Origin: Rhodospirillales bacterium
Lineage (GTDB): Bacteria > Pseudomonadota > Alphaproteobacteria > Rhodospirillales > Defluviicoccaceae
NCBI GenBank assembly: GCA_007694935.1
Contig: REES01000064.1
Span: 1-45,735, forward strand
Reading direction: 5' to 3'
Length of the DNA: 45,735 nt
Every line of letters begins with the position of its first letter. Within the stretch, counting starts at the first letter, position 1. The position numbers and the translations under genes are program-made. Positions 6,832-30,532 of the stretch are shown in pieces. The notes beneath the pieces are model-generated. The model was not told the origin of the DNA and ran no database searches. It saw only the letters and a program-made list of their open reading frames with translations.

Positions 6832-7125
6832 ATGGTGATGAGCACTTCCGAGACAGACCGGCAGGAAACCGCCATCGCCAAGCTGTTCATGCACGGGCGC
6901 AGCCAGGCAGTGCGCCTGCCCAAGGCCTTTCGCTTCCAAGGCAGCGAGGTCAAGGTGAGCCGGATCGGCGACAAGGTGATCCTGGAACCAGTGGACAAGC
7001 CCCGGTTCGACGTTGAGGCGTGGTGGGCCAAGCTTCGATCGTACCGCGACATCGACTTTCCCGAGGTGACGGACGAGCCACCGGTCACGCCGGACCCTGA
7101 CGTCTCTTTCGATCCTTTCGATTGA
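6832..7125 (+). CDS. vapB: VapB-type antitoxin (AbrB/SpoVT fold)
   Basis: 97 residues, or 95 from the ATG at 6838. The N-terminal half carries the swapped-hairpin DNA-binding motif AKLFMHGRSQAVRLPKAFRF, followed by GSEVKVSRIGDKVILEP. The C-terminal tail is rich in Asp, Pro and Trp and should wrap the toxin's active site. The toxin gene starts 9 bases downstream. An inverted repeat overlaps the promoter, suggesting autorepression by the complex. Antitoxins of this type are labile and are degraded by Lon or Clp proteases under stress (family knowledge). Confidence 0.86.
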   Translation: MVMSTSETDRQETAIAKLFMHGRSQAVRLPKAFRFQGSEVKVSRIGDKVILEPVDKPRFDVEAWWAKLRSYRDIDFPEVTDEPPVTPDPDVSFDPFD

Positions 7126-7134
7126 GCCGGTCGG

Positions 7135-7542
7135 ATGTTTTTCCTTGATACCAACATCGTCATCGGAATCATCACCGCCCGCGCCATGCATCTCGTCGAC
7201 CGGCTGAAAAGCGAACTGAAGCGGGGAACCCCCTTGGCCATTCCAGTTCCGGTGCTGTTCGAGCTTCGCTACGGCGCCGCCAAGAGCTCCCACCCAGCAC
7301 GCAACCATTGCCGGCTCGACGACTTCCTCTTGGCGACGCCAGACATCATCCCGTTCGATGCCGACGACGCAGCCGAGGCCGGTGATATCCGCGCCGCCCT
7401 GGAATCGGCGGGGCGCCCGATCGGGCCCTATGACGTCCTGATCGCGGCCCAGGCGCGCCGGCGCGGCGCCGCCCTGGTCACCGCCAACGGCCGGGAGTTC
7501 CAACGCATTCCCGGTCTGATCGTCACCGACTGGACGGCATGA
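7135..7542 (+). CDS. vapC: VapC-type PIN-domain ribonuclease toxin
   Basis: 135 residues, the standard length. PIN-domain acidic residues are visible: D5 in FFLDTN, E43 in VLFELRYG, and D100 in GPYDVLIAAQA; the last site appears as NGREF (118-122). VapC toxins are Mg2+-dependent endoribonucleases, often cutting initiator tRNA or the sarcin-ricin loop; the target here is unknown. It lies immediately after vapB, so the pair is one transcript. All catalytic positions look intact, so the toxin should be active. Confidence 0.88.
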   Translation: MFFLDTNIVIGIITARAMHLVDRLKSELKRGTPLAIPVPVLFELRYGAAKSSHPARNHCRLDDFLLATPDIIPFDADDAAEAGDIRAALESAGRPIGPYDVLIAAQARRRGAALVTANGREFQRIPGLIVTDWTA

Positions 7543-7629: not shown

Positions 7630-9465
7630 ATGAACGACGCTGCGCCGTCCCCACCGGGCAAGCCCCGGCTCGACCTCAGCGATGAACGGTCGTGGCGGCT
7701 GTTGCGCCGGTTGGTGCGGGAGCTGGTGCGTCCCTACCTCCCGACCCTGGCCGTGGCCGTGGTGTTCATGGCGGTGGTCGCGGCCACCACCGCGGCAACG
7801 GCGTGGCTGCTCGACCCTGTTGTCAACAAGGTGTTCGTCGCCCGCGACCCGGCGGCGCTGTGGCTGGTGGGCGGCGCGGTGCTGGCGGTGTTCGCCGTGC
7901 GCAGCGCCGCCGCCTTCCTGCAGGAGGTGCTGATCGCCCGGGTCGGCCAGCGGGTGATCGCCGACACCCAGGATCGGCTGTTCGGCCACATGCTGGCCCA
8001 GGACGTGGCGCTGTTCCAGGCCCGTCACTCGGGCGCGCTGCTGTCCCACTTCACCTACGATATCAATGCGATGCGCACGGCGGTATCGAACGCGCTGGTG
8101 GGGCTCGGCCGCGATGCCCTGTCGGTGCTGTTCCTGGTGGGGGTGATGGTCTACCAGGACTGGCTGCTGGCCTTGATCACCCTGGTGGTGGCGCCGCTCA
8201 CCATCTACCCCGTCCAGCAGCTCGGCCGGCGGATGCGCCAGGTATCCGCCCGCACCCAGGAGGAGATGGGGGTGCTCACCACCACCCTATCCCAGACGTT
8301 CCAGGCGATCCGAATGGTCAAGGCGTACGGCCTGGAAGCCTACGAGCGGGCCAAGGTGGGCCGGATGATCGAATCCCTTTTCGCCCTCACCTACCACGCC
8401 GCCAAGGTGCGGGCGGCGCCGCAGCCCATCATCGATGCGTTGGGCGGGATTGCGGTGGCGGCGGTGATCATCTACGGCGGTGCCCGGGTGATTGATGGCA
8501 CCACCACCGCGGGCGCCTTCTTCTCGTTCACCGCGGCGGTGCTGCTGGCTTACCAGCCGATGCGGGCGCTGGGCAAGATTGCCGCACAGATCCAGGAGGG
8601 CCTGGCCGCCGCCGACCGGGTGTTCCGCCTGCTGGACCGCCGCCCGGCCCTGGAGGACACTCCGGGCGCGAGGGCCCTGCCCCGCCGGGCCGGTGCCGTC
8701 CGGTTCGAGGGGGTGCGGTTCTCCTATGACGGCATCGCCTGGGCCCTGGACGGAGTGGATTTCGAGGCCCCGGCCGGCCGGGTGACGGCGCTGGTCGGCC
8801 CGTCCGGCGCCGGCAAGACCACCGTGTTCAACCTGATCCCCCGCTTCTACGACCCGGCCGCGGGTCGGGTCCTGGTGAACGGGCAGGATGTCCGGACGGT
8901 GACGGCCGCGAGCCTCCGCGACACACTGGCGGTGGTCAGCCAGGAGGTGACCCTGTTTGACGACACGGTGCTGGAGAACATCCGCCTTGGCCGGCTCACC
9001 GCCAGCGATGCCGAGGTCCGGGCGGCAGCAGCAGCGGCGGCGGCGGACGCATTCATCGACGACCTGCCAGAAGGCTACCGGACGGTGGTCGGCGAGCACG
9101 GCCTGCGACTCTCGGGCGGGCAGCGCCAGCGCATCGCCATCGCCCGGGCGATCCTCAAGGATGCGCCGATCCTGCTCCTGGACGAAGCCACCAGCGCGCT
9201 CGACACCGAATCGGAGCGGCGCATCCAGACGGCGCTCCACCGCCTCATGCAGGGGCGCACCACCCTGGTGATCGCCCACCGCCTGTCGACGATCATGGAG
9301 GCCGACGTGATCCACGTGTTCGCCGCGGGCAGGGTGGTGGAATCCGGCAGCCACGACGCGCTGCTTGGCCGGAGTGGCCTGTACGCGCGGCTGCACGCCC
9401 TGCAGTTCGCCGCCGAGGCCGACGTCCCGGCACCCGGGCAACCGGCGGAAGCGCCAGGGGCGTGA
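7630..9465 (+). CDS. msbA: MsbA-like ABC exporter (fused membrane and ATPase domains)
   Basis: 611 residues. Residues about 30-340 hold six membrane helices (type IV exporter fold). The ATPase domain follows, with Walker A GPSGAGKT at 390-397, signature LSGGQRQRIAIARA near 493, and Walker B ILLLDEATSAL near 513. It works as a homodimer in the inner membrane. The overall pattern (VNKVF, LFGHML, THYDIN-like HFTYDINAMRTAVS) is that of lipid A/phospholipid flippase MsbA. No lipid A genes adjoin, so a different lipid or drug substrate remains possible. ATG start at 7630; it is a single gene. Confidence 0.78.
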   Translation: MNDAAPSPPGKPRLDLSDERSWRLLRRLVRELVRPYLPTLAVAVVFMAVVAATTAATAWLLDPVVNKVFVARDPAALWLVGGAVLAVFAVRSAAAFLQEVLIARVGQRVIADTQDRLFGHMLAQDVALFQARHSGALLSHFTYDINAMRTAVSNALVGLGRDALSVLFLVGVMVYQDWLLALITLVVAPLTIYPVQQLGRRMRQVSARTQEEMGVLTTTLSQTFQAIRMVKAYGLEAYERAKVGRMIESLFALTYHAAKVRAAPQPIIDALGGIAVAAVIIYGGARVIDGTTTAGAFFSFTAAVLLAYQPMRALGKIAAQIQEGLAAADRVFRLLDRRPALEDTPGARALPRRAGAVRFEGVRFSYDGIAWALDGVDFEAPAGRVTALVGPSGAGKTTVFNLIPRFYDPAAGRVLVNGQDVRTVTAASLRDTLAVVSQEVTLFDDTVLENIRLGRLTASDAEVRAAAAAAAADAFIDDLPEGYRTVVGEHGLRLSGGQRQRIAIARAILKDAPILLLDEATSALDTESERRIQTALHRLMQGRTTLVIAHRLSTIMEADVIHVFAAGRVVESGSHDALLGRSGLYARLHALQFAAEADVPAPGQPAEAPGA

Positions 9466-9595
9466 AGCCCCCCTGTGCCGGCCGTGTGATTGCCGGTCCG
9501 CTTCGGCGTATACTTGTGGTATGAATCGCAGGATAGCGGCAGGGGCGGCAGCGGACGGATGAAGCCGGCGCGGCCCCGGGGAGGAGCACGGTTCG

Positions 9596-10339
9596 GTGAG
9601 GGGCGCCCAGCGCATCTTCGTCTGCGACGACGAGGCGGAGGTGCGGGAGATGATCGACGAATACCTGTCGGCCAACGGCTTCGCGGTAACCACCGCGGCG
9701 GGTGGCGAGGACCTGCGCCGGCTGCTGGCCGAGGCGGAGCCCGACCTCGTGCTGCTGGACGTCCGCATGCCGGGGGAGGACGGTCTGTCGCTGGCCCGCC
9801 ACGTGCGGGAACATCATCCGGCGGGGATCATCATGGTGACCGCCGCCGGCACCACCATCGACCGCATCGTCGGGCTCGAGGTCGGCGCCGACGACTACAT
9901 CGCCAAGCCGTTCGATCCCCGCGAGCTGCTGGCCCGGGTCAAGAGCGTGCTCCGTCGCGTCGCCGCCGCCCGGCGAGAGGCCGAAGCGTCGGCGCCCGCC
10001 GCCCCGCCGGCCTCCGCCAACAGCCGGCTGGTGCGCTTCGGCCGCTGCCGGCTGGATCTGGAAGCCCATACCCTGACCACCCTGGAGGGCGAGGCGGTTC
10101 CGCTCACGTCCATGGAATTCGACCTGCTCAAGGCCTTTGCCACCCATCCCAACCGGGTGCTGACCCGCGACCAGCTCCTCGACCTGGCGCACAACCGGGA
10201 CTGGGATCCGTTCGACCGCAGCATCGACATCCGTATCGCCCGCATCCGGCGCAAGATCGAGCCCGACCCCGCCAAGCCGCAGACCATCAAGACGGTCCGA
10301 GGCGCCGGCTACGTCTTCGTGCCCGCCGGTCCGGACTGA
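9596..10339 (+). CDS. OmpR/PhoB-type response regulator
   Basis: 247 residues from a GTG start preceded by GGGGAGGAG. The receiver domain has acidic pocket D11-D12, phosphoacceptor D55 (LVLLDVRMPG), T82 (MVTAAG) and K104 (AKPFDPREL). After a proline/alanine linker (about 128-142), a winged-helix DNA-binding domain ends in TVRGAGYVFVP. It overlaps the next gene at TGATG, hence coupled expression with the receiver-cyclase gene. The hybrid kinase at 12284-16462 is the obvious partner. Target genes are unknown. Confidence 0.88.
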   Translation: MRGAQRIFVCDDEAEVREMIDEYLSANGFAVTTAAGGEDLRRLLAEAEPDLVLLDVRMPGEDGLSLARHVREHHPAGIIMVTAAGTTIDRIVGLEVGADDYIAKPFDPRELLARVKSVLRRVAAARREAEASAPAAPPASANSRLVRFGRCRLDLEAHTLTTLEGEAVPLTSMEFDLLKAFATHPNRVLTRDQLLDLAHNRDWDPFDRSIDIRIARIRRKIEPDPAKPQTIKTVRGAGYVFVPAGPD

Positions 10340-11322
10340 TGGCTGCCGAACCCGCCGCCGCACCGCCGGGCCCGGCCAGGGCGGATGCCACCCCGCCGGA
10401 TGTCCCGACTATCCTGGTGGTCGACGACGAGGACGAGGTGCGGGCGATGCTGTTTGAGTACCTGAGCGGCCGCGGCTATGCCGTGGTCGCCGCCGAGGAC
10501 GCCCGTGCCATGTTCACGGTGCTGGAATCTCGGCCGGTGGACGTGGTGCTGCTGGACCGCACCATGCCGGGCGGCGATGCCATGCACCTGATCCCGGCAC
10601 TTCGCAGCCGGTTCGATGTCGGCGTCATTCTGGTGACGGCGCTCAGCACCGACGGTGACCGGGTGACCGGACTCGAGACCGGCGCCGACGACTACGTGTG
10701 CAAGCCGTTCAACCCGAGGGAACTGGCCGCCCGCATCCAGACGCTGCTGCGGCGTGCTTCCGCCCGTCCCAAGGCACTGCCGGCACCAAGATCGCCGGAA
10801 GCCGCCGATCGGCGGATGGCTGCGGTGCTGTGTGCCGACGTCGCCGGCTACGTGCGGCTGATGAACCAGGATGAGACCGGGACGATGCGGGCGCTGTGGG
10901 ACCATCGGCGGGAGCTGATCGATCCCACCCTGGCGGCCCATGGCGGACGGCTGGTGAAAAACACCGGGGATGGGTTCTTCGCCGAGTTCCGTGCCGTGTC
11001 CGATGCCTGCACCGCGGCACTTGCCATCCAGGCCGGCATGACAGCACGCAACACCGGTGTTGCCGCCGGCCGGCGGATGCAGTTCCGGATGGGCGTCAAC
11101 TGGTGCCGGGTCGTCGCCGACCGGGACGACATCTATGGCGACGGGGTCAACATCGCCCAGCGCCTGCAAACACTGGCCGAACCGGGCGGCATTTGCGTCT
11201 CGCAGTTGGTGGCCGATGCCCTCCGCGAGGACGACGGCGTCCGGGTGGAAGCCATGGGAGAGCGCCACGTCAAGAACATCAGCGAGCCCATCGCCGTCTT
11301 TCGCCTTCGCCGCAGGGACTAG
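10339..11322 (+). CDS. Response regulator with class III adenylate/guanylate cyclase output
   Basis: 327 residues from the ATG at 10339. The receiver (22-140) has D29-D30, phosphoacceptor D73 and K122. The cyclase domain (158-327) keeps metal aspartates D167 (CADVAGY) and D211 (NTGDGFF), base-reading K207 and D264 (DDIYG), and transition-state N271 and R275 (GVNIAQR). The enzyme should therefore be active and make cAMP or cGMP; Lys-Asp base contacts favour cAMP. There is no membrane segment. The frame stays open far upstream, but that part shadows the OmpR gene. Phosphorylation of the receiver is expected to switch cyclase activity (inference). Confidence 0.87.
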   Translation: MAAEPAAAPPGPARADATPPDVPTILVVDDEDEVRAMLFEYLSGRGYAVVAAEDARAMFTVLESRPVDVVLLDRTMPGGDAMHLIPALRSRFDVGVILVTALSTDGDRVTGLETGADDYVCKPFNPRELAARIQTLLRRASARPKALPAPRSPEAADRRMAAVLCADVAGYVRLMNQDETGTMRALWDHRRELIDPTLAAHGGRLVKNTGDGFFAEFRAVSDACTAALAIQAGMTARNTGVAAGRRMQFRMGVNWCRVVADRDDIYGDGVNIAQRLQTLAEPGGICVSQLVADALREDDGVRVEAMGERHVKNISEPIAVFRLRRRD

Positions 11323-11361
11323 CCACCGGGACGCGGACGGCAGAGCGAGGATGCAGCCATC

Positions 11362-12207
11362 GTGAGCGCCAACATCGTGAGCGCCATGGGTCGACGGTGG
11401 ACGACCCGATGTCTCGGGACGGCGGTGCTGCTGCTGGCATTGGCCATCGGCGCGGCCGCGGCTGAGATGCGCGACGGCGCGCTGGGCGACCGCGATTGCA
11501 CCCTCCGGTTCGGTTGGGAGCCCTATGGTTTTCTGCAGTTCGTCGACGACGAAGGCATCGTCACCGGTGCCGAGATCGAGCTGTTTCGCGAAATCGCCGA
11601 GGAGGTCGGCTGCCAAGTGGTCCTGCGCAACCTGCCGTGGGCGCGCATCCTGCTCGAGATCGAGACCGGCACCCTGGATCTGACCGCCAGCGCCAGTCGC
11701 ACCGCGGTGCGGCTCCGCTATGCCCGGTTCTCCGTGCCCTACCGCTCGACCGAGATGGCACTGTTCGTTCGGGCCGGCGACGCGGACGCCTATGACCTTC
11801 GGACACTGGCCGACATCGGACGCACCGGCTTCCGCCTTGGTGTGATCTGGGGCTACCACTACGGTGAAGAATTCGACCGATTGATGCAGGATCCGGCGTT
11901 CGCCGCCCAGGTGGAGGGAGCCGCTGATTACGTCATCAACATTCGGAAACTGATCCATCGGCGGATCGACGGGATCATGGTCGACGACATCGCCGTTCTG
12001 GCGGGCGAGGCGCGGGCGTCGCACGTCCTTGACCAGGTCGAACGGCATTCGCTGCACGTGGCGGGAGACGACCTGCATTTCATGTTCAGCCGCGCCACCA
12101 TCGGGCGCGAGTTGGTGGAAGACTTCAACAGGCTGCTCCTGCGTATGGACGAAGACGGCAGCCTGGCTCGGCTGTTCAGCCGGTTTCGCCATATCGAAGG
12201 ACACTGA
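11362..12207 (+). CDS. Periplasmic solute-binding protein, family 3
   Basis: 281 residues from the GTG at 11362 (GTG 11377 and ATG 11386 are alternatives). The signal peptide is CLGTAVLLLALAIGAAAA, cut before EMRDG. The mature protein follows the amino-acid/polar solute binding fold: FGWEPYGFLQFVDDEG, GAEIELFREIAEEVGC, LDLTASASRTAVR, then a second lobe with YVINIRKLIHRRIDGIMVDD. No ABC permease or ATPase genes are near. It lies between a cyclase regulator and a membrane kinase, so it more likely presents a ligand to the kinase's periplasmic domain than feeds a transporter (inference from context). Confidence 0.8.
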   Translation: MSANIVSAMGRRWTTRCLGTAVLLLALAIGAAAAEMRDGALGDRDCTLRFGWEPYGFLQFVDDEGIVTGAEIELFREIAEEVGCQVVLRNLPWARILLEIETGTLDLTASASRTAVRLRYARFSVPYRSTEMALFVRAGDADAYDLRTLADIGRTGFRLGVIWGYHYGEEFDRLMQDPAFAAQVEGAADYVINIRKLIHRRIDGIMVDDIAVLAGEARASHVLDQVERHSLHVAGDDLHFMFSRATIGRELVEDFNRLLLRMDEDGSLARLFSRFRHIEGH

Positions 12208-12283
12208 GCCACCGGGACGGCGGCGGCACCTTGAGAGCCGGAAGCGCGTCCGGCCCCGGCACCGCCGCCGGGAGGGCGTATCG

Positions 12284-15200
12284 ATGAGTTTGGTTCGGAC
12301 CGTCGCCGAAGGACTGTGGCGTTTCGTTGAGGACCTGCCGCTGCGCCCCGCCATCGCCGCGGCTCTGGTGCTGGGCCTGTTCATGCCGGTGCTGGTCTCG
12401 GTCTGGCGCGACCTGGAGGAGCGGCGGACCACTCTGCTCGCCCACCTGACCCAGGATCACGCACTGCTGACCCAGCTTCTCGCCATCGGCATGCAGACCC
12501 CGATCTGGGAGGTCCGGCCGATTGCCGGCCAGCCGCTGGTGGATACCCTGATCGGCGACACGCGGGTGACCGAGGTCACGGTTTCGTCGCCGCTGCTGCC
12601 CCAGTTTCTCTCGGCATCGGCCCCGGAGCGGCGAAGCGGCGAGCTCCTGATTCGGGAAATCCCGGTGGAGCGTGACGGTGAGATCATCGGCTCGGTTCGC
12701 CTCGAAATGACCACCGGCCCGCTGGAAGGGGAGATCGCGCGCCAATGGAGTCAGGTGCTGTTCACCGGGGTGTTGCAGCTGACGCTCGGCCTGCTGCTGG
12801 TCGTGCCGCTGCTGCGCCTCAAGGTTCTGGGTCCGGTCAGCCGACTGATGCAGCAGTCCCAGGCGCTGGCGCGGGGCGACCTGGAGACGCCGTTCGCCTG
12901 GACCCGGGGCGACGAGTTGGGCGATCTCGGGCGTCGCTTCGATGCCACCCGGTGCTCGCTCGCCACCCTGTTCGCCGATCTTGCCGCCCGCAATGCCGAG
13001 CTGGAACGCCACCGCGCCGAACTCGCCGAGCAGACGTCGGTACTACGCGCGGTCATGGACAACATGACCGACGGCATCAGCTTGGTGGACGGCGACCTTC
13101 GCCTGGTGATCTGTAATCGTCAGTTCGAAGCGATGTTCGACCTGCCGCCGGACCTGCTCAAGCCGGGCGTTCGCATGACCGACCTGCATCGTTTTGACAG
13201 CGAGCGCGGACGCTGGCAGGCCGAGAACCCGAAGAGCTATCTGGTAGCCCTGGCGGCGACCTACACGCCCGATCGCGAGACCGTCATGACCGTGGACATG
13301 GCGGACGGTCAGGTGATCCAGATGCGCCGACGCCCCATCCCTGGCGGCGGCTATGTCTCCACCTATACCGACGTCAGCGCGGAGGTACAGGCGAAACGGC
13401 GGGCGGAGGAAGCGCTCAAGCTGCTGGAGGCGGTGATGGACGCAGTGCCGGCGGTGCTCCACGTCAAGGACCACGACCTGCGCTACCGGATGATCAACCG
13501 CCATTTCGTCGAGGTCTCCGGACTCCGGCGCGCGGACGTCATCGGCAAGACCAGCCGCGAAGCGTTTGCATCCGAGCGGTTCGAGAACTACCGCGATCGC
13601 GACCTGGACGTGTTGGCCACCGGCCGGGCCCTGCCCTTCTACGAAACCCGGATCCAGCTCTACGGACGGGAGCGCTGGGATGCGCTCTCAACCAAGGTGC
13701 CTCTCTTGGACGACCGTGGCCGAATCACCCACATCGTCACCGTCGAGCTCGACATCACCGAACGCAAGAAGGCGGAAGCGGCGCTGCGGGAAAGCGAGGA
13801 ACTGCACCGCCTGCTGGTCGACCTGTCGCCCTTCGGCATCATGGTGCATGACCACGCCGGCATCGTGTTCGTGAACCGGGCCGGCTGCCGCATCCTCGGC
13901 TTGGCCCGGCCGGAGAACGCGGTGGGCCGCCACTACCTCGACTTCGTGTTGCCGGCGGAACGGAACGAAGCAGCCGAGCGCACCGTACGCGCCCTGGAAG
14001 CGGGCGAAGAGCTGGCGCCGACCGAACGCCGGCTGAAAACCGACGATGGCCGGATCATCGACGTCGCCGTTGCTGCGGTACCGTTCACGCGGGCCGGCCA
14101 GCGCTTCGCCCTGGTGATGTTCCGCGACATCACGGACAGCAAGCGGCTGGAGCGGGCGCTCCGGGAGAGCGAGCGCCATTTCCGCAGCCTGGTGGAAGGT
14201 CACCCGTTGCCGGTGTGGGTGGTCGACGCCGACAGCGGCGATATCCTTTACGAAAGCCCGCATTCCGCCGAACTGTTCGGGCGGCCCTGGCCGCCGGAGC
14301 GGTCCCGCAACGCGATCACCCACTGGTTCGACCCCGAGGAGCGGGGACGGTTCCTGTCCCGCCTGGAGAACGAGGGCGAACTGCGCGACTTCGAGTGGCA
14401 TGCCCGCAAGGAGAACGGCGCTCCGTTCTGGGTGCTGGTCAACGCCAGACTGATCCGGCGCAAGGATCGCCGCCTGGTGGTCGCCAGCATGTTCGACCTT
14501 ACCGAGCGCAAGCAGCGCGAGGCCGAGATGCGGGAAGCGCGCGAGACCCTGGAGGATGCCATCGAGTCGCTGTCCGAGGGTTTCGCCCTGTTCGACGACC
14601 GCGACCGCCTGGTCATCTGCAACCGCCGCTACCGCGAGTTTCACAGCGTCTCCGGCGACCTGCTCGCCCCGGGGGTAACCTGGACCGAGTTCCACCGCGA
14701 GGCCGGTGCGCGCGGAGAGTTCACGGATGCCGACGGCATGACCGCCGAGCGGCTTGCCGCCATGCTGGACTGTGATGCCGATGGCCCGCGAACCCTTGAG
14801 GTAAAGCATGCGGATGGCCGCTGGTACCAGCTCTCGCACCAACGGACCCGGCGCCAGGGCAGCGCCGTCATCCGCACCGAGATCACCCACCTGAAGACCA
14901 TGGAGCAGGCGCTACGCGACAGCGAGGACCGGTTCCGCCGGATTGCCGAAGCCCACCCGGTGCCGGTGGCGATCGTCAGTCTCGACGAGGGCGAGATACT
15001 CTACGCCAGCCCGGCCGCGGCGGCGCTGTTCGGCCGGCCGCTTCCGGCTCTGATCGGCAGCCGGATGACCGAGTTCTACGAGAATCCGGCCCAGCGGGCC
15101 GATTTCGTCGCCTTGTTCCGGCAGCAGGGATACGTCGATTCATTCGAGGTCCGATACCGTCGGGATGACGGCACTGTGTTTCCGGTCGCCATCCGGTCGC

Positions 15201-16462
15201 GACCGATTGTCTATGAGGGCCATGAGGCGGTGGTGTCCGGGGTATTCGACCTGACCGAGCGGAAGGCGGCGGAGGCCGAAATCGCCAAGCAGCGCGAGGC
15301 GCTGCATCAGAGCGAGAAGCTCAACGCCCTGGGCTCGCTGCTCGCCGGTGTCGCCCATGAACTGAACAACCCGCTCTCGGTGGTGGTCGGCCGCTCGATC
15401 ATGCTGGAGGGCGCCGACATGGACGAGCGGACCGCCAACAATGTGACCAAGATCCGTGCCGCCGCGGAGCGGTGCGCGCGCATCGTCAAGACGTTCTTGG
15501 CAATGGCACGGCAGCAGGCGCCTTCGCGGGTGCCGGTGCGGCTGGCGGATATCATCGACGCCTCACTGGACCTGGTGGGATACCGGCTGCGCAGCGGCGG
15601 CGTCGACGTGGTCCGAGACATTGAGGCGGACCTGCCGGAAACCCTGGCCGATCCCGATCAGCTCAATCAGGTGTTCAGCAACCTGTTCCTCAATGCCCAA
15701 CAGGCGATGGCCGAGGTCGCCCCCGGCGGCCGCAAGGTCCTGACCATCCGCGGCCGCTATCTCCCTGCGGAGCAAGCGATCTCCCTGGAGGTCCGAGACA
15801 CCGGTCCCGGCATCCCCAGGGAGGTCATGCCGCGGATCTTCGATCCGTTCTTCACCACCAAGCCCGCCGGGATCGGCACCGGCATCGGGCTTGCGGTTAC
15901 CCACGGGATCATCCGGTCCCACGACGGCAAGATCTCGGTCAGCACGCCCCCCGGGGGCGGCGCCTGCTTCCGCATCGTCCTGCCGGTGCGGACCGGCGCT
16001 GATGCCACCGCCGCCGAGCAGTCCCGCGACGGCTCAGTGTCCGGCGGGCAACGGATCCTGGTGGTCGACGACGAGGCCGAGATCGGACAGATGCTTGCGG
16101 ACATTCTGGTGGCGGAAGGCCATCGGGTGACGTTGGCTGCGAGCGGCCGGGAAGCCCTGGATGCCGTGGCGAAGGAACCCTTCGATTTGGTGGTCAGCGA
16201 CCTGGTGATGCCCGAACTTGATGGCTCCCACCTGTACCGTATGCTGCTGGAGAACCATCCGCATCTTGCCTCGCGGACGGTGTTCATGACCGGCGACACC
16301 CTGAGCCGCAGCGCCAAGGCCTTCGTTCGGGATTCGGCGCGGCCCTTGATCGAGAAGCCGTTCACCCCCGAGGAAGCCGTCCGCGTCATCCGCGAGGCGC
16401 TGATCTCGGCAACCCTGCGGGACCAAGACAACCTTGCCGGTCCATCGCCACTCGGCACCTGA
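12284..16462 (+). CDS. Hybrid histidine kinase: TM-HAMP, six PAS-like modules, kinase and receiver
   Basis: 1392 residues from ATG 12284, preceded by GGGAGG. TM1 is at about 22-42; a periplasmic domain of about 110 residues follows; TM2 is at about 155-178, then HAMP to about 230. PAS-like modules begin near 252, 380, 507, 630, 756 and 881. The dimerisation helix carries H1025 (GVAHELNNPLS). The ATPase part has an N-box (NLFLNAQQAM), G1 box (DTGPGIP) and G2 box (GTGIGLAVT). The C-terminal receiver has phosphoacceptor D1306 (VVSDLVMPELDG). Modules 1/5 and 4/6 are close relatives, pointing to internal duplication. It closes a locus with a binding protein and two regulators. No histidine phosphotransfer gene is in the window. 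Confidence 0.9.
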   Translation: MSLVRTVAEGLWRFVEDLPLRPAIAAALVLGLFMPVLVSVWRDLEERRTTLLAHLTQDHALLTQLLAIGMQTPIWEVRPIAGQPLVDTLIGDTRVTEVTVSSPLLPQFLSASAPERRSGELLIREIPVERDGEIIGSVRLEMTTGPLEGEIARQWSQVLFTGVLQLTLGLLLVVPLLRLKVLGPVSRLMQQSQALARGDLETPFAWTRGDELGDLGRRFDATRCSLATLFADLAARNAELERHRAELAEQTSVLRAVMDNMTDGISLVDGDLRLVICNRQFEAMFDLPPDLLKPGVRMTDLHRFDSERGRWQAENPKSYLVALAATYTPDRETVMTVDMADGQVIQMRRRPIPGGGYVSTYTDVSAEVQAKRRAEEALKLLEAVMDAVPAVLHVKDHDLRYRMINRHFVEVSGLRRADVIGKTSREAFASERFENYRDRDLDVLATGRALPFYETRIQLYGRERWDALSTKVPLLDDRGRITHIVTVELDITERKKAEAALRESEELHRLLVDLSPFGIMVHDHAGIVFVNRAGCRILGLARPENAVGRHYLDFVLPAERNEAAERTVRALEAGEELAPTERRLKTDDGRIIDVAVAAVPFTRAGQRFALVMFRDITDSKRLERALRESERHFRSLVEGHPLPVWVVDADSGDILYESPHSAELFGRPWPPERSRNAITHWFDPEERGRFLSRLENEGELRDFEWHARKENGAPFWVLVNARLIRRKDRRLVVASMFDLTERKQREAEMREARETLEDAIESLSEGFALFDDRDRLVICNRRYREFHSVSGDLLAPGVTWTEFHREAGARGEFTDADGMTAERLAAMLDCDADGPRTLEVKHADGRWYQLSHQRTRRQGSAVIRTEITHLKTMEQALRDSEDRFRRIAEAHPVPVAIVSLDEGEILYASPAAAALFGRPLPALIGSRMTEFYENPAQRADFVALFRQQGYVDSFEVRYRRDDGTVFPVAIRSRPIVYEGHEAVVSGVFDLTERKAAEAEIAKQREALHQSEKLNALGSLLAGVAHELNNPLSVVVGRSIMLEGADMDERTANNVTKIRAAAERCARIVKTFLAMARQQAPSRVPVRLADIIDASLDLVGYRLRSGGVDVVRDIEADLPETLADPDQLNQVFSNLFLNAQQAMAEVAPGGRKVLTIRGRYLPAEQAISLEVRDTGPGIPREVMPRIFDPFFTTKPAGIGTGIGLAVTHGIIRSHDGKISVSTPPGGGACFRIVLPVRTGADATAAEQSRDGSVSGGQRILVVDDEAEIGQMLADILVAEGHRVTLAASGREALDAVAKEPFDLVVSDLVMPELDGSHLYRMLLENHPHLASRTVFMTGDTLSRSAKAFVRDSARPLIEKPFTPEEAVRVIREALISATLRDQDNLAGPSPLGT

Positions 16463-16712
16463 CCGGCGCGGCGCGCGGCGGCCGTTTTTCGCATTGCATC
16501 AAAGCGCGGCAGGGCGGCTGTTCACGGTCCTGGCACCTATATCTGCAAGGGTCTTGTGGTCCGTGCATCGCCGGAGCAGTCTGTCGGGAAAATGGTCCGG
16601 TCCGGGAACCCGTTGCGAAAGGCCGCGTTCCACCCGGTCAGGCCGCCATCAACAGGCCGCTCCCGTTGCAACACGGCCCTACGTTCGTCGAGACCGTCGC
16701 AGGAGCCTTACC

Positions 16713-17678
16713 ATGAATAACACGGCACGAAAGGTCGGAGCGGTGGCGATGGCAAGTCGCACCGGATTGATACTGATGGCGCTGATGCTGGCCGTTTCGG
16801 CGATCGCCACGACGCGGGCATTCGCCAACGACGTCATCGGCGAAATGCGGGTGATCACCGCCAAGCACGAGGATACCCTGCTGGAGCTGGCGCGGGAGCA
16901 CGGCCTCGGTTTCGTCGAGATGGTGGCGGCCAATCCCGGCGTGGATCCCTGGGTCCCCGGCGCGGGCAAGCGGCTGCGGCTGCCGAAGCTGCATGTCCTC
17001 CCCGATGCGCCGCGCAGGGGGGTGGTCGTTAATCTGGCCGAACTGCGGCTGTACTACTTTCCGCCGGGCGGCGGCCGGGTTCAGACGTTCCCAATGGGGA
17101 TCGGCCGCGACGATTTCATCACGCCGAAAGGGGCCACGACGGTGGTGCGCAAGCAGAAGCACCCGACCTGGTACCCGACCGCCAACACCCGGCGCGACCG
17201 CCCTGAGCTCCCCGCCGTGGTGCCCCCGGGGCCGGACAATCCGCTCGGCGACTACGCGCTGTATCTCGGCTGGCCCGCGTACCTGATTCACGGCACCAAC
17301 ATGCCTTACGGCGTGGGGCGACGGGTCAGCCGCGGCTGCATCCGCATGTATCCCGAAGACATCGAATACCTGTTCGGCCGGGTGCCGGTGGGCACGCCGG
17401 TGATGGTGGTCTCCCAACCGGTGAAGCTGGGGCGCCGGGATGGCGAGCTCTACATGCAGGTGCACCCATCGGCCCGGCAGGTCGACCAGATCGAGGAACG
17501 GGGCTACGCCGACCCGGAACCGGTGCCGGAGGAAGCGGATCCGGACCGGATCCTGATCGCCGCCGCGGATGACGTCTGGCGGCTGGACTGGACCGCCATC
17601 AACCGCGCGTTGCAGGCCCGCAACGGCGTGGCAGTGCGCATCACCCGTGATCCCGACACGTTCGGCCAGCGGTTCTGA
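16713..17678 (+). CDS. Secreted L,D-transpeptidase (YkuD domain)
   Basis: 321 residues from the ATG at 16713, preceded by AGGAG. The signal peptide ends near ATTRAFA-ND. Residues about 48-95 look like a LysM-type module (VITAKHEDTLLELAREHGL, ANPGVDPWVPGAGK). The YkuD catalytic block has H193 (HGTNMPYGVG) and SRGC with nucleophile C209. It should form 3-3 crosslinks or attach proteins to peptidoglycan in the periplasm. An extra tail of about 60 residues (from DQIEERGYADPEP) follows the domain. The 250-base upstream gap (16463-16712) shows no gene. It faces the T6SS cluster tail-to-tail; no direct link to secretion is shown. Confidence 0.88.
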   Translation: MNNTARKVGAVAMASRTGLILMALMLAVSAIATTRAFANDVIGEMRVITAKHEDTLLELAREHGLGFVEMVAANPGVDPWVPGAGKRLRLPKLHVLPDAPRRGVVVNLAELRLYYFPPGGGRVQTFPMGIGRDDFITPKGATTVVRKQKHPTWYPTANTRRDRPELPAVVPPGPDNPLGDYALYLGWPAYLIHGTNMPYGVGRRVSRGCIRMYPEDIEYLFGRVPVGTPVMVVSQPVKLGRRDGELYMQVHPSARQVDQIEERGYADPEPVPEEADPDRILIAAADDVWRLDWTAINRALQARNGVAVRITRDPDTFGQRF

Positions 17679-17723: not shown

Positions 17724-18440
17724 TCAGGAGCTCAGCAACCGTTGGTACCAGGGCTCCCGGACCGGCTTGCTCGGCTTCTCACCTTCCGCCGGCGGGCCGG
17801 CAGCCCGGTCGCCGACGAAGGTGGTGCGCCGGACGGCCTTCCCGGCCCCGTCGTACTCGACCATCACGCCGTCGCGCAGGCCGCTGCGATAAGGGGTGCG
17901 TGTACGCAGCCCGCCATCAGCGTCGTAATCCAGGGTGTCGCCCTCGAGCTTGTCGTCCCGGTATTCCATCTTCCGAAGGATGCTGCCGTCGGGCCGGTAT
18001 ACCGTGGTCGTGCCGTGCCTGCGGCCGCGGCGGTACTCGGCCACCATCGCCAGGCCGCCGCGTTCGTCATAGCTGGTGACCTCGCCGTCCAGCAGCCCCT
18101 CACGATAGGTCGCGTCCAGCAAAGGCAGCCCCGCGCGATACAGCTTGGCCGGCCCCTCCAGCACGCCGTCCCGGTAGGTGAGCTCGGCCAGAGGCCGACC
18201 TTCCTCGTCGTAATCCACCAGACGGCCATCCCGCCGGCCGGACCGAAATGGTATCTCGGTGACAACGGCCCCATCAGGCCCATAGCGCACCACGGTCCCG
18301 TCCAGGCGTCCGTCCCTGTACGTGCTCCGTTCCACCGGCTTGCCGTCGCTATCCCGCCTGAGCAGCGTGCCGTCCTGCGGTGGAGGGGCGTCACCCTGGT
18401 CCGGCGGGCCGCCCGTCTCATTCAAACCTGCCTCGGCCAT
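17724..18440 (-). CDS. YwqK-like MORN-repeat protein coupled to vgrG
   Basis: 238 residues, no signal peptide. From residue 24 on, the protein is a run of seven to eight repeats of 23-24 residues of the form Y-x-DG-x(8)-YRDG-x-L-DG. This is the MORN-variant pattern of the protein family labelled 'YwqK antitoxin'. The ATG overlaps the vgrG stop by one base (TGATG), so it is made with VgrG. It is the last gene of the tssB-to-vgrG operon. Possible roles are an adaptor or chaperone loading a cargo onto VgrG, an immunity protein, or a cargo itself. None can be chosen from the sequence, and no toxin gene lies beside it. Confidence 0.75.
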   Translation of the reverse strand: MAEAGLNETGGPPDQGDAPPPQDGTLLRRDSDGKPVERSTYRDGRLDGTVVRYGPDGAVVTEIPFRSGRRDGRLVDYDEEGRPLAELTYRDGVLEGPAKLYRAGLPLLDATYREGLLDGEVTSYDERGGLAMVAEYRRGRRHGTTTVYRPDGSILRKMEYRDDKLEGDTLDYDADGGLRTRTPYRSGLRDGVMVEYDGAGKAVRRTTFVGDRAAGPPAEGEKPSKPVREPWYQRLLSS

Positions 18441-20323
18441 CAGTTGATCTTCACCATGCCCCCCTGGATGGTCACCATGCCGCCCTTCAGTTCGGCCGCG
18501 GCACTGGCGACCATTTGCAGCGAGGTCGCCGCGACCAGGTCCATGCCGAGGCCGGTGGTCATGGTGGTCTGAGCGCCGGCATTCACGGTGAGGGCGGCTC
18601 CGGCGGAGATGGTCACCGAACCACTGGCCCGGATCAGCAGGTTGCCGGTGACGATGAGGGAGCAGTTGCCGCCGACCTCGTGGGTGAACCCGGCGGCATT
18701 GGTGTGCTTCTCCTCGCCGGTAATGGTCAGGGTGCGCTGCCCCTGGACCGTGAGTTCCTCGTTCCCCTGGTCGACGGACACCGTCCGGTTGCCCTCCGAC
18801 ACGGTAAGGCTGTCGTCCTTCGTAACCGTGGTGGTGCGGTTCTCCTCCACCTCCGTGGTCAGGTCTTTCTGGGCATGCAGATAGACCTCCTCCTCCCCGG
18901 CTTTGTCCTCGAAGCGGAACTCGTTGTAGCCGTCCCCGCCGGTCGAACTCTCGCTCCTGATGGTGGTCTTGGTCTGCTCGTCCGGCAGGCCGTAGGGAAC
19001 TGGGTTGTCGCCGTTGTAGACGCAGCCGGTGACGATGGGGCGGTCGGGATCGCCGTCGAGGAAGCTCACCACCACCTCCTGGCCGATCCGCGGCAGCACG
19101 AAAGTCCCCCAGCTCTTGCCGGCCCAGCCATGGCTGACGCGGATCCAGCAGGAGCTGTTCTCATCGCCCTGGCCCTGCTGGTCCCAGTGGAACTGCACCT
19201 TGATCCGGCCGTACTGGTCGGTCCAGATCTCCTTGCCCGAAGGACCGACCACCCGTGCGGTCTGCGAGCCGCCGACGCGGGGGCGCGGCGCGGCGCGCGG
19301 CGGCGGCAAGGGTGCATCCGCTTCCTGGGCGATGAACGTGTTGGCGTATTCGTTCCGCCCGACGCGATGGCGGACCGTGCGCAGCACCAAGTCGCCGTCG
19401 GCGAACGGATGACCGGTCAGGGTGAACTTGTATCCGGGGGCGAAGCCGCGCACCGGGGAGGCACCGCTGATCAAGGTCCTGGCGGATCGCAGCGCATTCA
19501 GGCGCCGCTTGGCAACCGAATCCCCCTGGTCCTTCAGCGTATAGCCGCCAGGATAATCATAGACGGTGAAATCTCCATCACCATCGCTGACAGAGACCTT
19601 GAGCTCGGTCGCCGGCGTCTCGAAGTTGTAGTCGTCGGCCTGAAACCCATCGGGGACGACCTGCTTCTCCACCGACAGGTCATCGATCCGGCAATCCTCC
19701 AGCCAGTCGCGGGAGCCGGTCCTCGGCTTGAACGGGACGCTGGCCGCATTGGGACAGGGCTGGAGGGCACTGGCGTCGTCGACGAGCACCAGGGTGTGCG
19801 CATCCTCGGCATGCTCGAAGTAGTAGGCGATGCCGTCCTCCGCCATCAGGCGATGGACGAAATCATACGTCGTTTCCCGGTACTGGACGCAGTACTCCCG
19901 CTGTCCGTATTGAGCGGAGAGAGCGTTGCGGTAGTCCGAGAAGCCCAGTTCGTCGAACACGTCCTGCAAAATGTCCGGCACCGTCTTGTTCTGGAAAATG
20001 CGGTTGTCGGACGTGAGCCGCAGCAGCCACAGCCACGGGCGCAGCTCTGCGTGCCACGTTGCCCGGCCGCGGATCAGGCGGGTGACGAGGCCGTGAACGA
20101 CCCGCTGGTTGCCGTCGCCATCGAGCAGGGTGACGTGCGCCGCCTGGCCGACCACCGCTTCAGGGTCCAGGCCCTCCCCCGCAACGGCCATGGCGAGACG
20201 GAACAGGAACGGCCGGGACAGCTGCTCCTTCCCGTCCATCCCCTCCAGGATCAGCTGGTCCTTGCCGAGCGGGGTGGTGACGCCGAGCGAGGCCCGATCC
20301 TGGGTCAGGCTTCGGTCCGGCAT
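18440..20323 (-). CDS. vgrG: T6SS spike protein VgrG (TssI)
   Basis: 627 residues from ATG 20323, which overlaps the clpV stop (GTG codons at 20326 and 20329 are alternatives). The first two thirds are gp27-like, then a gp5-type OB fold (DQYGRIKVQFHWDQQG, RVSHGWAGKSWG, PRIGQEVVVSFLDGDPDRPIV). The rest is a repeating beta-helix (VGGNCSLIVTGNLLIRASGS) ending GGMVTIQGGMVKIN. The protein stops soon after the needle, so there is no fused effector domain. It trimerises on the Hcp tube and is capped by a PAAR-type tip; the DUF4280 protein at 38259-38648 is the only candidate tip in the window. Confidence 0.94.
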   Translation of the reverse strand: MPDRSLTQDRASLGVTTPLGKDQLILEGMDGKEQLSRPFLFRLAMAVAGEGLDPEAVVGQAAHVTLLDGDGNQRVVHGLVTRLIRGRATWHAELRPWLWLLRLTSDNRIFQNKTVPDILQDVFDELGFSDYRNALSAQYGQREYCVQYRETTYDFVHRLMAEDGIAYYFEHAEDAHTLVLVDDASALQPCPNAASVPFKPRTGSRDWLEDCRIDDLSVEKQVVPDGFQADDYNFETPATELKVSVSDGDGDFTVYDYPGGYTLKDQGDSVAKRRLNALRSARTLISGASPVRGFAPGYKFTLTGHPFADGDLVLRTVRHRVGRNEYANTFIAQEADAPLPPPRAAPRPRVGGSQTARVVGPSGKEIWTDQYGRIKVQFHWDQQGQGDENSSCWIRVSHGWAGKSWGTFVLPRIGQEVVVSFLDGDPDRPIVTGCVYNGDNPVPYGLPDEQTKTTIRSESSTGGDGYNEFRFEDKAGEEEVYLHAQKDLTTEVEENRTTTVTKDDSLTVSEGNRTVSVDQGNEELTVQGQRTLTITGEEKHTNAAGFTHEVGGNCSLIVTGNLLIRASGSVTISAGAALTVNAGAQTTMTTGLGMDLVAATSLQMVASAAAELKGGMVTIQGGMVKIN

Positions 20324-22965
20324 CACCACAACTCGTAGGCCAGAGAGCCGTCGCCGGCCAGGGCGATGTGGACGCCGGCAATGGTCTCGCCCTCCGTCAG
20401 GCGGTCGAGGATGTGCCCGGAAAGCTGCGGCAGCAGGGTGTGAGAGAGGATGGCATCGATGGTGCGGGCGCCGCTTTCGGTGGTTTCGGCCCGGGTTGCC
20501 AGCGCCCGCACCACCGCATCGTCGCAGGTGAGCTCGGCACGGTAGCTGGCGGCGAACCGCTCCCGGATACGCTGGAGCCTGAGCCGGACGATGGCATCGA
20601 TGTCCGCCGTCCGGAGCGGCCGGTACGGCACCACCACCAGGCGGCCAAGGAACGCCGCCGGGAAATGTCGCCGCAACGCCGGCCGGATCGCCTCCCGGGC
20701 GGTGTCCAGGTCCACGCCGGCGGCGGCGTCATGGAGCTCGGTCAGGCGCTCGGCGCCGACGTTGGAGGTGGCGAGGATCACCGTGTTGGTGAAATCCACC
20801 AGTTGACCTTCGCTATCCTCCAGGGTGCCCTTGTCGAACACCTGGTAGAACAGTTCGATGACATCCGGGTGCGCCTTCTCGATCTCGTCCAGCAACAAAA
20901 CCGAATAAGGGCGCCGGCGCACCGCTTCCGTCAGCACCCCGCCCTTGCCGTAACCGACATACCCCGGCGGTGCTCCCTTGAGGCCCGAGACGGTGTGGGC
21001 CTCCTGGTATTCGGACATGTTGACGGTGATCAGCGCCGACGTGCCGCCGAACAGCAACTCGGCCAGAGCGATCGCCGTCTCGGTCTTGCCGACGCCGCTG
21101 GGACCGGTGAGCAGGAACACGCCGGTGGGCTTTCCCGCCTCGTTGAGGTCTGCGTAGAATGTCTGGACCCGCCGGCAGATGGTATCCAGCGCTACGTCCT
21201 GGCCGATCACCCGTTCGGCCATGCGCTCCTTCAGGGTGCGGGCGGTGGTGACGGTATCGCTCAGCATCCGGCCCACCGGGATGCCGGTCCAGCCGGCCAC
21301 GACCTCCGCGATCACCCGGCTGTCCACCACCAGCGGGATCAGCGGCTCGTCCTGTTGCACCGCCGACAGCTCGAGCCTGAGCCGGGCCAGGTCCCCGCGC
21401 AGCGACTCGCCGGCAGCGGCGTCGGCCGAGGCCATGGCCGTCTCCACCCGGCGGATCCGCATCACCGTGTCCCGCTCCACCGACCAGCGGGCCTCCAGCC
21501 GGGCGCGATGCTCGTCCGCCCGATCCCGCTCCTCCGACAGCAACTCCATGCGGTCGCGATGATCGCTGCCGAGGTGCTGCTCCCGCTCCAGTTGGCTGAT
21601 CTCCACCGACAAGGCGTGGCAGCGGCCCTCCGCTTCCTGGAGGCCGGCCGGCTTGTCGGAGCCGGCGATGGCCACCCGGGCGCAGGCGGTATCCAGCACG
21701 CTGATCGCCTTGTCCGGAAGCTGTCGGCCCGAGATGTAGCGGTGGGACAGGCGCACCACCTCGCTCACGGCTTCATCGAGGATGCGAACGCCGTGGTGGG
21801 CTTCCAGCCTGGGCACCAGGCCGCGGACCATCAGGCCCGCCGTCGCCTCCGACGGTTCGGCCACCTTGATCACCTGGAAGCGCCGCGCCAGCGCCGGGTC
21901 CTTCTCGAAGTAGCGCTTGTATTCGCCCCAGGTTGTGGCGGCAATGGTGCGAAGAGTCCCGCGAGCCAGCGCCGGCTTGAGCAGATTGGCGGCGTCCCCC
22001 TGCCCCGCCTGGTTGCCCGCCCCGATCAGGGTATGGGCCTCGTCGATGAACAGGACGATCGGCTTCGATGCCGCCGAGACCTCTTCGATCACGCTGCGCA
22101 GCCGGTGCTCGAACTCGCCGCGGATGCCCGCCCCGGCCTGCAGCTGGCCGAGATCCAGGCTTCGCACCACGACACCGGCCAGTGCCGGCGGCACCCGGCC
22201 CTGGACCACCCGCTGGGCGAAGCCCTCCACGATGGCGGTCTTGCCGACACCGGCATCACCGGTGAGGATCGGGTTGTTCTGGCGCCGGCGCATCAGGACG
22301 TCGATCACCTGACGGATCTCGTCGTCCCGTCCGACGATCGGGTCGATGCGGTCGGCCCGCGCCTCCGCTGTCAGGTCCACCGTGTAGGCGTCCAGGGCCG
22401 GTGTCCGGGGGTCGGCACCGGAGGTGGTGGAACCGGGTTGCCGCGGCGCTGCGGCACCGGGCGCCGCCGCTTGCGGACGGGCCGCAGGCTCATCCTCGTG
22501 ACCGCCTCGCATGATTTCCGGCATGTCCTCGACCAGCCGAGCCCGCGGCACCGCGGCCAAGGCGGGGCAGGACGCCGTCACCAGGCCGTGAAACCGGTCA
22601 TCCTCCAGCACCGCCCTGAGGATCGCACCGGAGCGGATGGCTTGCTGCTGCAGGTCCAGGGAGGCCAGCGTCCAGGCGTGGATCAGCATATCCACCAGCA
22701 CCTTGGACAGTGTCGGCGTGCGGGTATTGCCGCGCTTGAAGCGGTCGATCGCGCGGCTGAGTTCCCGGCTGCAGGTTTCTGGCTCGATGCCGTAGGCACG
22801 GAGGGCACGGGCGAAATCGCCCTCCGGCAGGGCGCACAGTTCCAGCAGAAGGTGCTCGATCTCCACCGAGAACTGGGTCCGCCGCAGGCACTGGTCGGCG
22901 GCCTTTTCCGTTGCTCGGCGGCACAACGGGTTCAGCCGCGCCACCAGGGACTTGAGTTCCGGCAT
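20323..22965 (-). CDS. clpV: T6SS sheath-recycling ATPase ClpV (TssH)
   Basis: 880 residues from ATG 22965, 17 bases after the tssG stop; the frame's earlier ATG would overlap tssG. The N-terminal domain (1-150) is the ClpV type that recognises the TssC N-terminal helix. Two AAA+ modules follow: Walker A GDAGVGKT near 235 with FIDEAHTL near 305, and GPSGVGKT near 620 with LLLDEIEKAH near 687. A middle coiled-coil domain separates them (about 400-510). A Gln/Ala/Pro-rich linker lies at about 170-200. It unfolds contracted TssB/C sheath in the cytoplasm so the subunits can be reused. Confidence 0.95.
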   Translation of the reverse strand: MPELKSLVARLNPLCRRATEKAADQCLRRTQFSVEIEHLLLELCALPEGDFARALRAYGIEPETCSRELSRAIDRFKRGNTRTPTLSKVLVDMLIHAWTLASLDLQQQAIRSGAILRAVLEDDRFHGLVTASCPALAAVPRARLVEDMPEIMRGGHEDEPAARPQAAAPGAAAPRQPGSTTSGADPRTPALDAYTVDLTAEARADRIDPIVGRDDEIRQVIDVLMRRRQNNPILTGDAGVGKTAIVEGFAQRVVQGRVPPALAGVVVRSLDLGQLQAGAGIRGEFEHRLRSVIEEVSAASKPIVLFIDEAHTLIGAGNQAGQGDAANLLKPALARGTLRTIAATTWGEYKRYFEKDPALARRFQVIKVAEPSEATAGLMVRGLVPRLEAHHGVRILDEAVSEVVRLSHRYISGRQLPDKAISVLDTACARVAIAGSDKPAGLQEAEGRCHALSVEISQLEREQHLGSDHRDRMELLSEERDRADEHRARLEARWSVERDTVMRIRRVETAMASADAAAGESLRGDLARLRLELSAVQQDEPLIPLVVDSRVIAEVVAGWTGIPVGRMLSDTVTTARTLKERMAERVIGQDVALDTICRRVQTFYADLNEAGKPTGVFLLTGPSGVGKTETAIALAELLFGGTSALITVNMSEYQEAHTVSGLKGAPPGYVGYGKGGVLTEAVRRRPYSVLLLDEIEKAHPDVIELFYQVFDKGTLEDSEGQLVDFTNTVILATSNVGAERLTELHDAAAGVDLDTAREAIRPALRRHFPAAFLGRLVVVPYRPLRTADIDAIVRLRLQRIRERFAASYRAELTCDDAVVRALATRAETTESGARTIDAILSHTLLPQLSGHILDRLTEGETIAGVHIALAGDGSLAYELW

Positions 22966-22981
22966 CACCACTCCCCGGGGG

Positions 22982-25890: not shown

Positions 25891-26366
25891 GGGGGTTGGG
25901 TGTCCGGTTCCTCCCGCTCCACGGGGGAGCCGAGCGGGATGCGGAAGAACACGGTCTCCATCACCTCCCCGATGGCGAGCTTGCCGGAAACGGCGGCGAC
26001 CAAGGACTCGCCCCGGTCGGCAACGCGCTCGATGGTGACCGCCGGCCCCTCCAGTCGCGGCTCGAACGCAACGATGGCCCGCCGCAAATGGTCGGCCAAT
26101 CGCCGTTCGGCATCGCTGTCGCGGGGCGGAAACAGGCTGAAATCCGGAATACCGTAGTCGATGACCGTACGCGGCCGCCGGGTCAGGGTATCGGCGTCCA
26201 CGGCGATGCGCGTATTCAGCAGGTCCGACAACTCCCGTGCGACCGACTCCATCAGGGCTTCGTGGTGCAGGACGCGGCCGGGCAGGTATGACCCCGCCCG
26301 GCCCTTCGCGCCTTCGGTGAGCCGCTCGAACAAGAGCGCCCGGGCACCGCGAATGGGCCTGGGCAC
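25887..26366 (-). CDS. tssE: T6SS baseplate protein TssE (gp25-like)
   Basis: 159 residues from a GTG start 7 bases after the hcp stop; GAGG precedes it. The phage T4 gp25-like fold shows in ESVARELSDLLNTRIAV, the conserved VIDYGIPDFS and a final acidic-core strand (MKLAIGEVMETVFFRIPL-like). TssE joins baseplate and sheath and provides the nucleus for sheath polymerisation. Confidence 0.92.
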   Translation of the reverse strand: MPRPIRGARALLFERLTEGAKGRAGSYLPGRVLHHEALMESVARELSDLLNTRIAVDADTLTRRPRTVIDYGIPDFSLFPPRDSDAERRLADHLRRAIVAFEPRLEGPAVTIERVADRGESLVAAVSGKLAIGEVMETVFFRIPLGSPVEREEPDTQPP

Positions 26367-26373
26367 AGGCGCC

Positions 26374-26874: not shown

Positions 26875-26908
26875 GACCTTGGTGTCCTTTCCCTAACAGC
26901 GAGATCGA

Positions 26909-28411: not shown

Positions 28412-28490
28412 GATCGTCTCCCTTGACGGACGCCGCCCGCGCGGCGTCTCCGGTGTTGGCTTTCCTGTGCCTTCCTGTCATGTCACCGGA

Positions 28491-30405: not shown

Positions 30406-30532
30406 GGCCCAAACATCCCTCTACGCCAATAGGGGTACCCCAAAATAACATAAATCCACCCTTCGACGCAGTCATTGAATAGCCTTACCCGCTCCCGTTG
30501 GCATCGCTTGGGCGCATGCCGCCGATTTCCCT

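Follow-up and report, generated by a model that had tools for sequence, protein, structure and literature searches.

Can a single extracellular cue, read by a soluble binding protein in the periplasm, set both transcription and cyclic nucleotide synthesis through one histidine kinase? The question is raised by four close-set genes at positions 9596-16462 (+ strand) of a 45,735-nucleotide (nt) stretch of Rhodospirillales DNA, contig REES01000064.1, the whole of which we call the window. In order, the genes encode an OmpR-family response regulator, a response regulator with a class III adenylyl cyclase domain (the receiver-cyclase), a family 3 solute-binding protein (SBP), and a hybrid sensor histidine kinase. 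We judge it slightly more probable than its opposite, at roughly 55%, that the block is one operon for an SBP-triggered, two-output signaling system. The observations are most economically explained by a three-component sensing core, formed around the SBP and the kinase, with exchangeable outputs, both of which are present here.

Composition of the four-gene block

The gene order was established from the open reading frame listing, a reading of the junctions, and Pfam matches, and these uphold the coordinates, strand, and domains of the four close-set genes as given in a preliminary description of the locus. The OmpR-family regulator (9596..10339, + strand; 247 amino acids [aa], GTG start) has a receiver with phosphoacceptor Asp55 and a winged-helix DNA-binding domain, matching Response_reg (2.7e-28) and Trans_reg_C (1.5e-24). 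Its TGA stop codon (10337-10339) overlaps by one base the ATG start codon (10339-10341) of the receiver-cyclase gene (10339..11322, + strand; 327 aa), whose product matches Response_reg (4.5e-23) and Guanylate_cyc (6.8e-12). The receiver of the latter protein (10411..10740, + strand; residues 25-134) keeps its phosphoacceptor D73 as well as T100 and K122, and the catalytic domain (10819..11277, + strand; residues 161-313) carries all six class III residues, D167, K207, D211, D268, N271, and R275, which bears out the earlier claim that the cyclase is catalytically complete. From the class III literature, we take D167 and D211 to be metal-binding residues and K207 and D268 to be purine-binding residues. 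When the domain was compared by sequence with the PDB, the best match was 3mr7 (E = 3.2e-38), which has the same catalytic residues. An intact phosphoacceptor site is thus fused to a domain with the complete catalytic set, as in a receiver-class III cyclase.

The SBP gene (11386..12207, + strand; 273 aa) follows after 63 nt, or after 39 nt if translation begins at an alternative GTG at 11362; its product has an N-terminal hydrophobic segment and matches SBP_bac_3 (4.6e-19) and no other family. A further gap of 76 nt leads to the kinase gene (12284..16462, + strand; 1392 aa), which encodes a first transmembrane segment (TM1), a periplasmic domain, a second such segment (TM2), HAMP, a PAS array, HisKA (15329..15520, + strand; residues 1016-1079) with His1025, HATPase_c, and a C-terminal receiver (16055..16390, + strand; residues 1258-1369) with Asp1306. 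Two hydrophobic segments are apparent in the kinase (19-residue windows from residues 23 and 158), and Pfam recovers HAMP, several PAS domains, HisKA, HATPase_c, and Response_reg. The phosphorylation sites are intact in all three receivers of the block and in the kinase H box.

Part of the block is nearly identical in G010, a genome of the same genus. Positions 9780-10619, which take in the greater part of the regulator and half of the cyclase protein's receiver, form a sharp block of 98-100% nucleotide identity, in which every 60-base window from 9840 to 10559 is 100% identical, against an average of 83% over the 19 kb aligned; the cause is either recent recombination or an assembly chimera. 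The alignment with G010 extends to position 26792, where the G010 contig ends.

The SBP and kinase form a conserved pair

A profile of the N-terminal 250 residues of the kinase, with up to 8 candidates scored per genome, matched 6 of the 317 genomes of the order at 1e-25. A named genome collection yielded six kinase loci, four of them the G010, G250, G001, and G005 contigs and two of them new (L096 and L099), and the kinase is known in eight genomes in all: the window's, G010, G005, G250, L096, L099, G002, and G001. The window and G010 share the order regulator-cyclase-SBP-kinase. In G250, the regulator (73%) is followed by the SBP (46%) and kinase (55% in the sensor) with no cyclase between, and in L096, a regulator (64%) stands divergently on the opposite strand, followed by the SBP (44%) and kinase. 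L099 has the SBP (49%) and kinase only, a 66% regulator lying on another contig of the same genome (G698). G005 has the cyclase (52%), SBP (41%), and kinase (48% in the sensor), with a different gene at the regulator's place. In G002, where the SBP (26%) and kinase (40% in the sensor) are both distant, a regulator (63%) is present at another site of the genome. The G001 kinase is at a contig end, leaving its upstream side unreadable.

With G001 excluded, the SBP and kinase genes stand side by side at all seven readable loci, the arrangement expected of a three-component system, in which an SBP gene is kept beside that of a transmembrane kinase. The regulator is in the SBP-kinase cluster at four of the seven (window, G010, G250, and L096), and a receiver-cyclase adjoins the pair at three. 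Judged by gene content, the conserved core is the SBP plus the kinase, and the outputs come and go.

Residues Cys38, Cys76, Arg109, and Asp201 of the SBP are invariant among six relatives, the window's protein included, and Arg109 aligns with the Arg of a T-x-x-R stretch in the solved amino-acid binding protein 4h5f. Conservation of Arg109 and Asp201, which we presume from the SBP family to act in ligand binding, suggests an amino-acid-like ligand. The predicted structure of the SBP is poor (mean pLDDT, 63.6; residues 85-140 below 50). For the periplasmic sensor domain of the kinase (12404..12754, + strand; about residues 41-157), no Pfam family besides HAMP was matched up to an E of 5, and the model (mean pLDDT, 82.3) has a PAS-like fold. 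Among Foldseek's own candidates, to which the fold comparison extends, an integrative model of WalK with YycH ranks first (Z = 14.2), followed by the LapD-type CdgS9 (Z = 12.3), with which a Clostridium perfringens kinase sensor ties (Z = 12.0); the sensors of CitA, WalK, and DctB reach Z scores of 9 to 11. CdgS9 (4u64) is the best crystal-structure match to the modeled sensor (Foldseek TM, 0.75 by target; 118 residues at 2.6 Å), a likeness to the LapD periplasmic output domain that is one of fold only, at 7% identity. LapD binds the periplasmic protein LapG (PMC5231407).

The pair resembles TorT-TorS-TorR of Escherichia coli and CuaD-CuaS-CuaR of Ruminiclostridium in uniting an SBP, a membrane sensor kinase, and a regulator; it differs from them in its family 3 SBP, in a sensor that is PAS-like by model, and in an additional, cyclase-type second regulator. 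TorT belongs to another SBP type than family 3, and the SBP of the block, matching SBP_bac_3 only, is not of the TorT type. Complexes have been solved for the SBP-activated kinases TorS, LuxQ, and LytS, among others, that of TorS being of its sensor domain with TorT (PMC6321045). In the three-component system CuaDSR, CuaD binds CuaS (PMC10384115).

Both receiver proteins co-occur with the kinase

With 8 candidates scored per genome, members of the regulator clade were found in 10 of the 317 genomes of the order at 1e-78, as well as in G697 and G698, the genomes of L096 and L099. These 12 loci group together in the tree (support, 79/98; 82% of bootstraps); the long-branch row G002_C28 lies nearby at an open fork. 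A hybrid kinase is in the cluster at eight of them (window, G010, G250, L096, G039, G040, G041, and G044). In the last four, the adjoining hybrid PAS kinase shares the PAS-kinase-receiver part at 36-41% identity, and no match to the present sensor was found in these kinases, those of G040 and G041 being cut by a contig end. A shorter PAS kinase stands beside the regulator in G108, and no kinase match adjoins it in G173, G698, or G002.

Full-length receiver-cyclases occur in 3 of the 317 genomes at 1e-50 (six candidates scored per genome), and the remaining five genomes of this search match the cyclase part alone. A split copy is present on another contig of G250 (L084 7858-8835), where receiver and cyclase are encoded in separate frames that share 10 bases at the linker, reflecting either a genuine split of the gene or an indel in the assembly. 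No other split copy came to light at 14 cyclase-only loci checked for a neighboring receiver, at two of which (L047 in G093 and L108 in G698) the contig breaks off immediately upstream. The loci checked include six from these five genomes or their second copies, and the second copy of G250. Among plasmid records, 691 matched the cyclase protein at 1e-20, none of them over at least 80% of its length. In samples of the class, receiver and cyclase together were matched at 1e-57 in 1 of 385 genomes, by the window's own protein, and at 1e-45, 41 of 289 genomes had matches, all other rows among the matches listed beginning at or beyond residue 111. Scoring in these samples took in no more than 5 to 7 candidates per genome, which leaves room for receiver-cyclase fusions of other descent.

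All four genomes with a receiver-cyclase, counting the split copy of G250, are among the six kinase genomes (hypergeometric P = 3.6e-8; 1.9e-6 without G010), and the genomes with the regulator and those with the kinase overlap in four (P = 7.4e-6; 1.6e-4 without G010), probabilities that ignore phylogeny. This co-occurrence, together with the G005 arrangement, is the strongest evidence for the putative cyclase branch. The same distributions bear on an alternative in which the kinase has a single receiver protein as its true partner. This would be the OmpR-type regulator, and a different kinase would drive the co-transcribed receiver-cyclase (with the roles exchanged in G005). Such an arrangement would fit the wider pairing of the regulator with hybrid kinases, at 8 of 12 loci versus 3 loci with the cyclase, and the unlinked cyclase of G250, but it sits poorly with a receiver-cyclase that, within the order, was seen in four genomes, each of which has the kinase, and that adjoins the SBP-kinase pair in G005 without the regulator. 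We regard a kinase with one receiver as unlikely and prefer one that serves both.

A different class III cyclase lies next to the same kinase family in G001 (L093 2965-6288), where the kinase gene is followed after 75 nt, in the same orientation, by the gene for a SAM-cyclase-AAA-TPR protein.

A proposed direct path from one histidine to two outputs

We propose that a dedicated periplasmic family 3 SBP, whose ligand is probably amino-acid-like, binds a dimeric hybrid kinase at its small, PAS-like domain in the periplasm and that regulation would run from the ligand state of the SBP to kinase activity at His1025. The phosphoryl group would pass from His1025 directly to Asp55 of the OmpR-type regulator, acting on transcription, and directly to Asp73 of the receiver-cyclase, whose product would be cyclic AMP (cAMP). 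The receiver of the kinase itself (Asp1306) may act as a brake, sink, or gate.

The preliminary description had termed the system a relay, a word that in its strict sense is not supported. No HPt domain was detected in the four proteins at an E of 0.01, the genome not having been searched for unlinked HPt proteins; a relay is therefore unproven, and transfer from one histidine directly to two receivers is the simpler scheme. In a true phosphorelay, the group would travel from His1025 via Asp1306 and an unlinked HPt protein to the two receivers, as in CckA-ChpT-CtrA or in RocS4-HptA. The intact C-terminal receiver of the kinase, present likewise in four scanned relatives, is consistent with such a route, as is the interaction of the hybrid kinase RocS4 with a separate HptA (PMC12051241). 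Set against it is the lack of an HPt domain in the block, to which may be added the usual behavior of the regulator's family. OmpR-family regulators are as a rule phosphorylated directly, and we hold the phosphorelay to be quite improbable beside direct transfer.

Each element of the proposed direct scheme has a precedent. For the receiver-driven cyclase, it is the cyanobacterial CyaC, which combines kinase, receivers, and cyclase in one protein and was reportedly found by Kasahara and Ohmori in 1999 to be activated by autophosphorylation and phosphotransfer. CyaC is alike in having a cyclase driven through phosphotransfer to a receiver; it differs from the block, whose kinase is a protein of its own that may also serve a DNA-binding regulator. 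For the SBP-kinase pair, the precedents are TorT-TorS and CuaDSR, and for branching, the Roc network of Pseudomonas aeruginosa (RocS1, RocA1, and RocR), in which kinases feed DNA-binding regulators and a second-messenger enzyme (PMC12051241). One Roc kinase has periplasmic SBP_bac_3 domains and a cytoplasmic PAS domain and branches to DNA and a second messenger, but its SBP domains are fused to the kinase, its regulators are of the GerE type, and its enzyme (EAL) destroys cyclic di-GMP. The block, with a separate SBP, a Trans_reg_C output, and a cyclase that would make a cyclic mononucleotide, is not a Roc-type network and may work like one without being a member.

Branching of this kind within one operon had been called unusual, a term that is fair for the cAMP branch and overstated as a principle, since the Roc network already branches. 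In a literature search of open-access full texts, covering titles and the openings of abstracts, no SBP-kinase operon with a receiver-cyclase was found described. The block departs from these precedents in bringing together, in one operon, a separate SBP, a regulator of the OmpR type, and a cyclic mononucleotide as output: the parts are ordinary, and the combination is uncommon.

Evidence against a single two-output system

Several observations weigh against this reading, the first of which concern the transcript. In a scan of positions 9300-16800, no sigma-70 promoter was found (0.7 expected), leaving a single transcription unit unproven, and seven terminator-like sites were found where 2.6 were expected (standard deviation, 1.7), five of them on the + strand and all of these within coding sequences. 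The scan settles nothing about a shared transcript; the spacing of the four genes is compatible with co-transcription, which we infer.

Gene content is a second point. The full block occurs in only two of the eight kinase genomes, both of one genus; G005 has no detectable member of the regulator clade, and no full-length receiver-cyclase was seen in L096, L099, G001, or G002. Conservation of all four genes, considered as the main support for the system, was rejected, as G010 alone among seven relatives keeps the set. The preliminary description had proposed a single pathway, to be checked by co-occurrence in other genomes and abandoned if the genes were scattered in relatives. The outputs do scatter, and to that extent the proposal fails; the SBP-kinase pair does not, and both receivers track the kinase in presence and often in position.

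The input is a third. For two P. aeruginosa kinases, AgtS and AruS, no interaction was observed with an SBP encoded nearby (PMC11113362), and adjacency of SBP and kinase is therefore not proof of coupling. A profile of the SBP had matches at 1e-35 in 20 of 314 genomes searched within the order; among the eight whose neighborhoods were covered (G000, G010, G005, G250, G009, G202, G204, and G263), three have homologues away from this kinase. In G009 (a contig of 3.3 kb) and G204, the SBP stands without a kinase or chemoreceptor partner, and in the G263 stretch, it is the sole query with a match. The sensor fold is common to small-molecule binders such as CitA and DctB, and because some of its relatives bind proteins and others small molecules, it does not decide on SBP docking. 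All of this would accord with an uncoupled SBP and kinase, the former an orphan scavenger or transport partner and the latter sensing via its own periplasmic or PAS domains. Such uncoupling is harder to reconcile with the 7/7 adjacency, with the absence of a transporter gene directly beside the SBP in the window, and with a second SBP-sensor pairing in G202 (L176 4743-7108), and we think it somewhat unlikely. There, 41 nt separate the gene of an SBP homologue (38%) from that of a downstream chemoreceptor (MCPsignal), which is related to the kinase in its N-terminal region (hhalign, 95.6%; E = 1.3e-8; membrane and HAMP parts inflate the alignment), and on this account SBP and sensor may stay together as outputs are exchanged.

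The last point is the cyclase branch of the two-output system, against which the strongest evidence is how seldom the receiver-cyclase occurs, its location away from the SBP-kinase pair in G250, and the G005 cyclase, where Met replaces the purine-binding Asp and activity is doubtful judging from this substitution. An origin of the cyclase receiver as a recent copy of the neighboring regulator's receiver was considered and found unsupported: the three cyclase receivers form their own group outside the regulator clade (support, 99/68, with the bootstrap not settled and long branches flagged), and a shared choice of partner is thus not implied by descent.

Flanking genes

The block is bordered by a gene for an MsbA-like exporter (scoring under the NCBIfam MsbA cutoff), 130 nt before the regulator, and by one for an L,D-transpeptidase, 250 nt after the kinase. 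The earlier claim of a lone family 3 SBP without transporter genes holds for these flanks only: no importer gene adjoining the block is present among the flanking genes, the rest of the genome not having been searched for importers. Type VI secretion genes (18440-34672, - strand), encoding VgrG-like, ClpV-like AAA, TssG, TssF, VipB/TssC, ImpA-type, and IcmF-type proteins, begin a little less than 2 kb past the kinase gene. Upstream, at 6832-7542 (+ strand), genes for a MazE-like antitoxin and then a PIN-domain protein likely constitute a toxin-antitoxin pair.

Implications

More broadly, and tentatively, a separate periplasmic SBP may set transcription and cAMP through one hybrid kinase, as one version of a stable SBP-sensor core that is fitted with a DNA-binding, a cyclase, or, in a relative, a chemoreceptor output. 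If true, a class III adenylyl cyclase would here be under the control of a soluble binding protein of the periplasm. Should the wiring hold, one extracellular cue would act via the same kinase on transcription, as the slow output, and on a cyclic nucleotide, as the fast and diffusible one, and the natural variants with either output alone would offer a ready comparison of one- and two-output versions of the same sensor. We know of no input for most alphaproteobacterial class III cyclases, and the same wiring would supply a testable cue pathway for one of these many enzymes.

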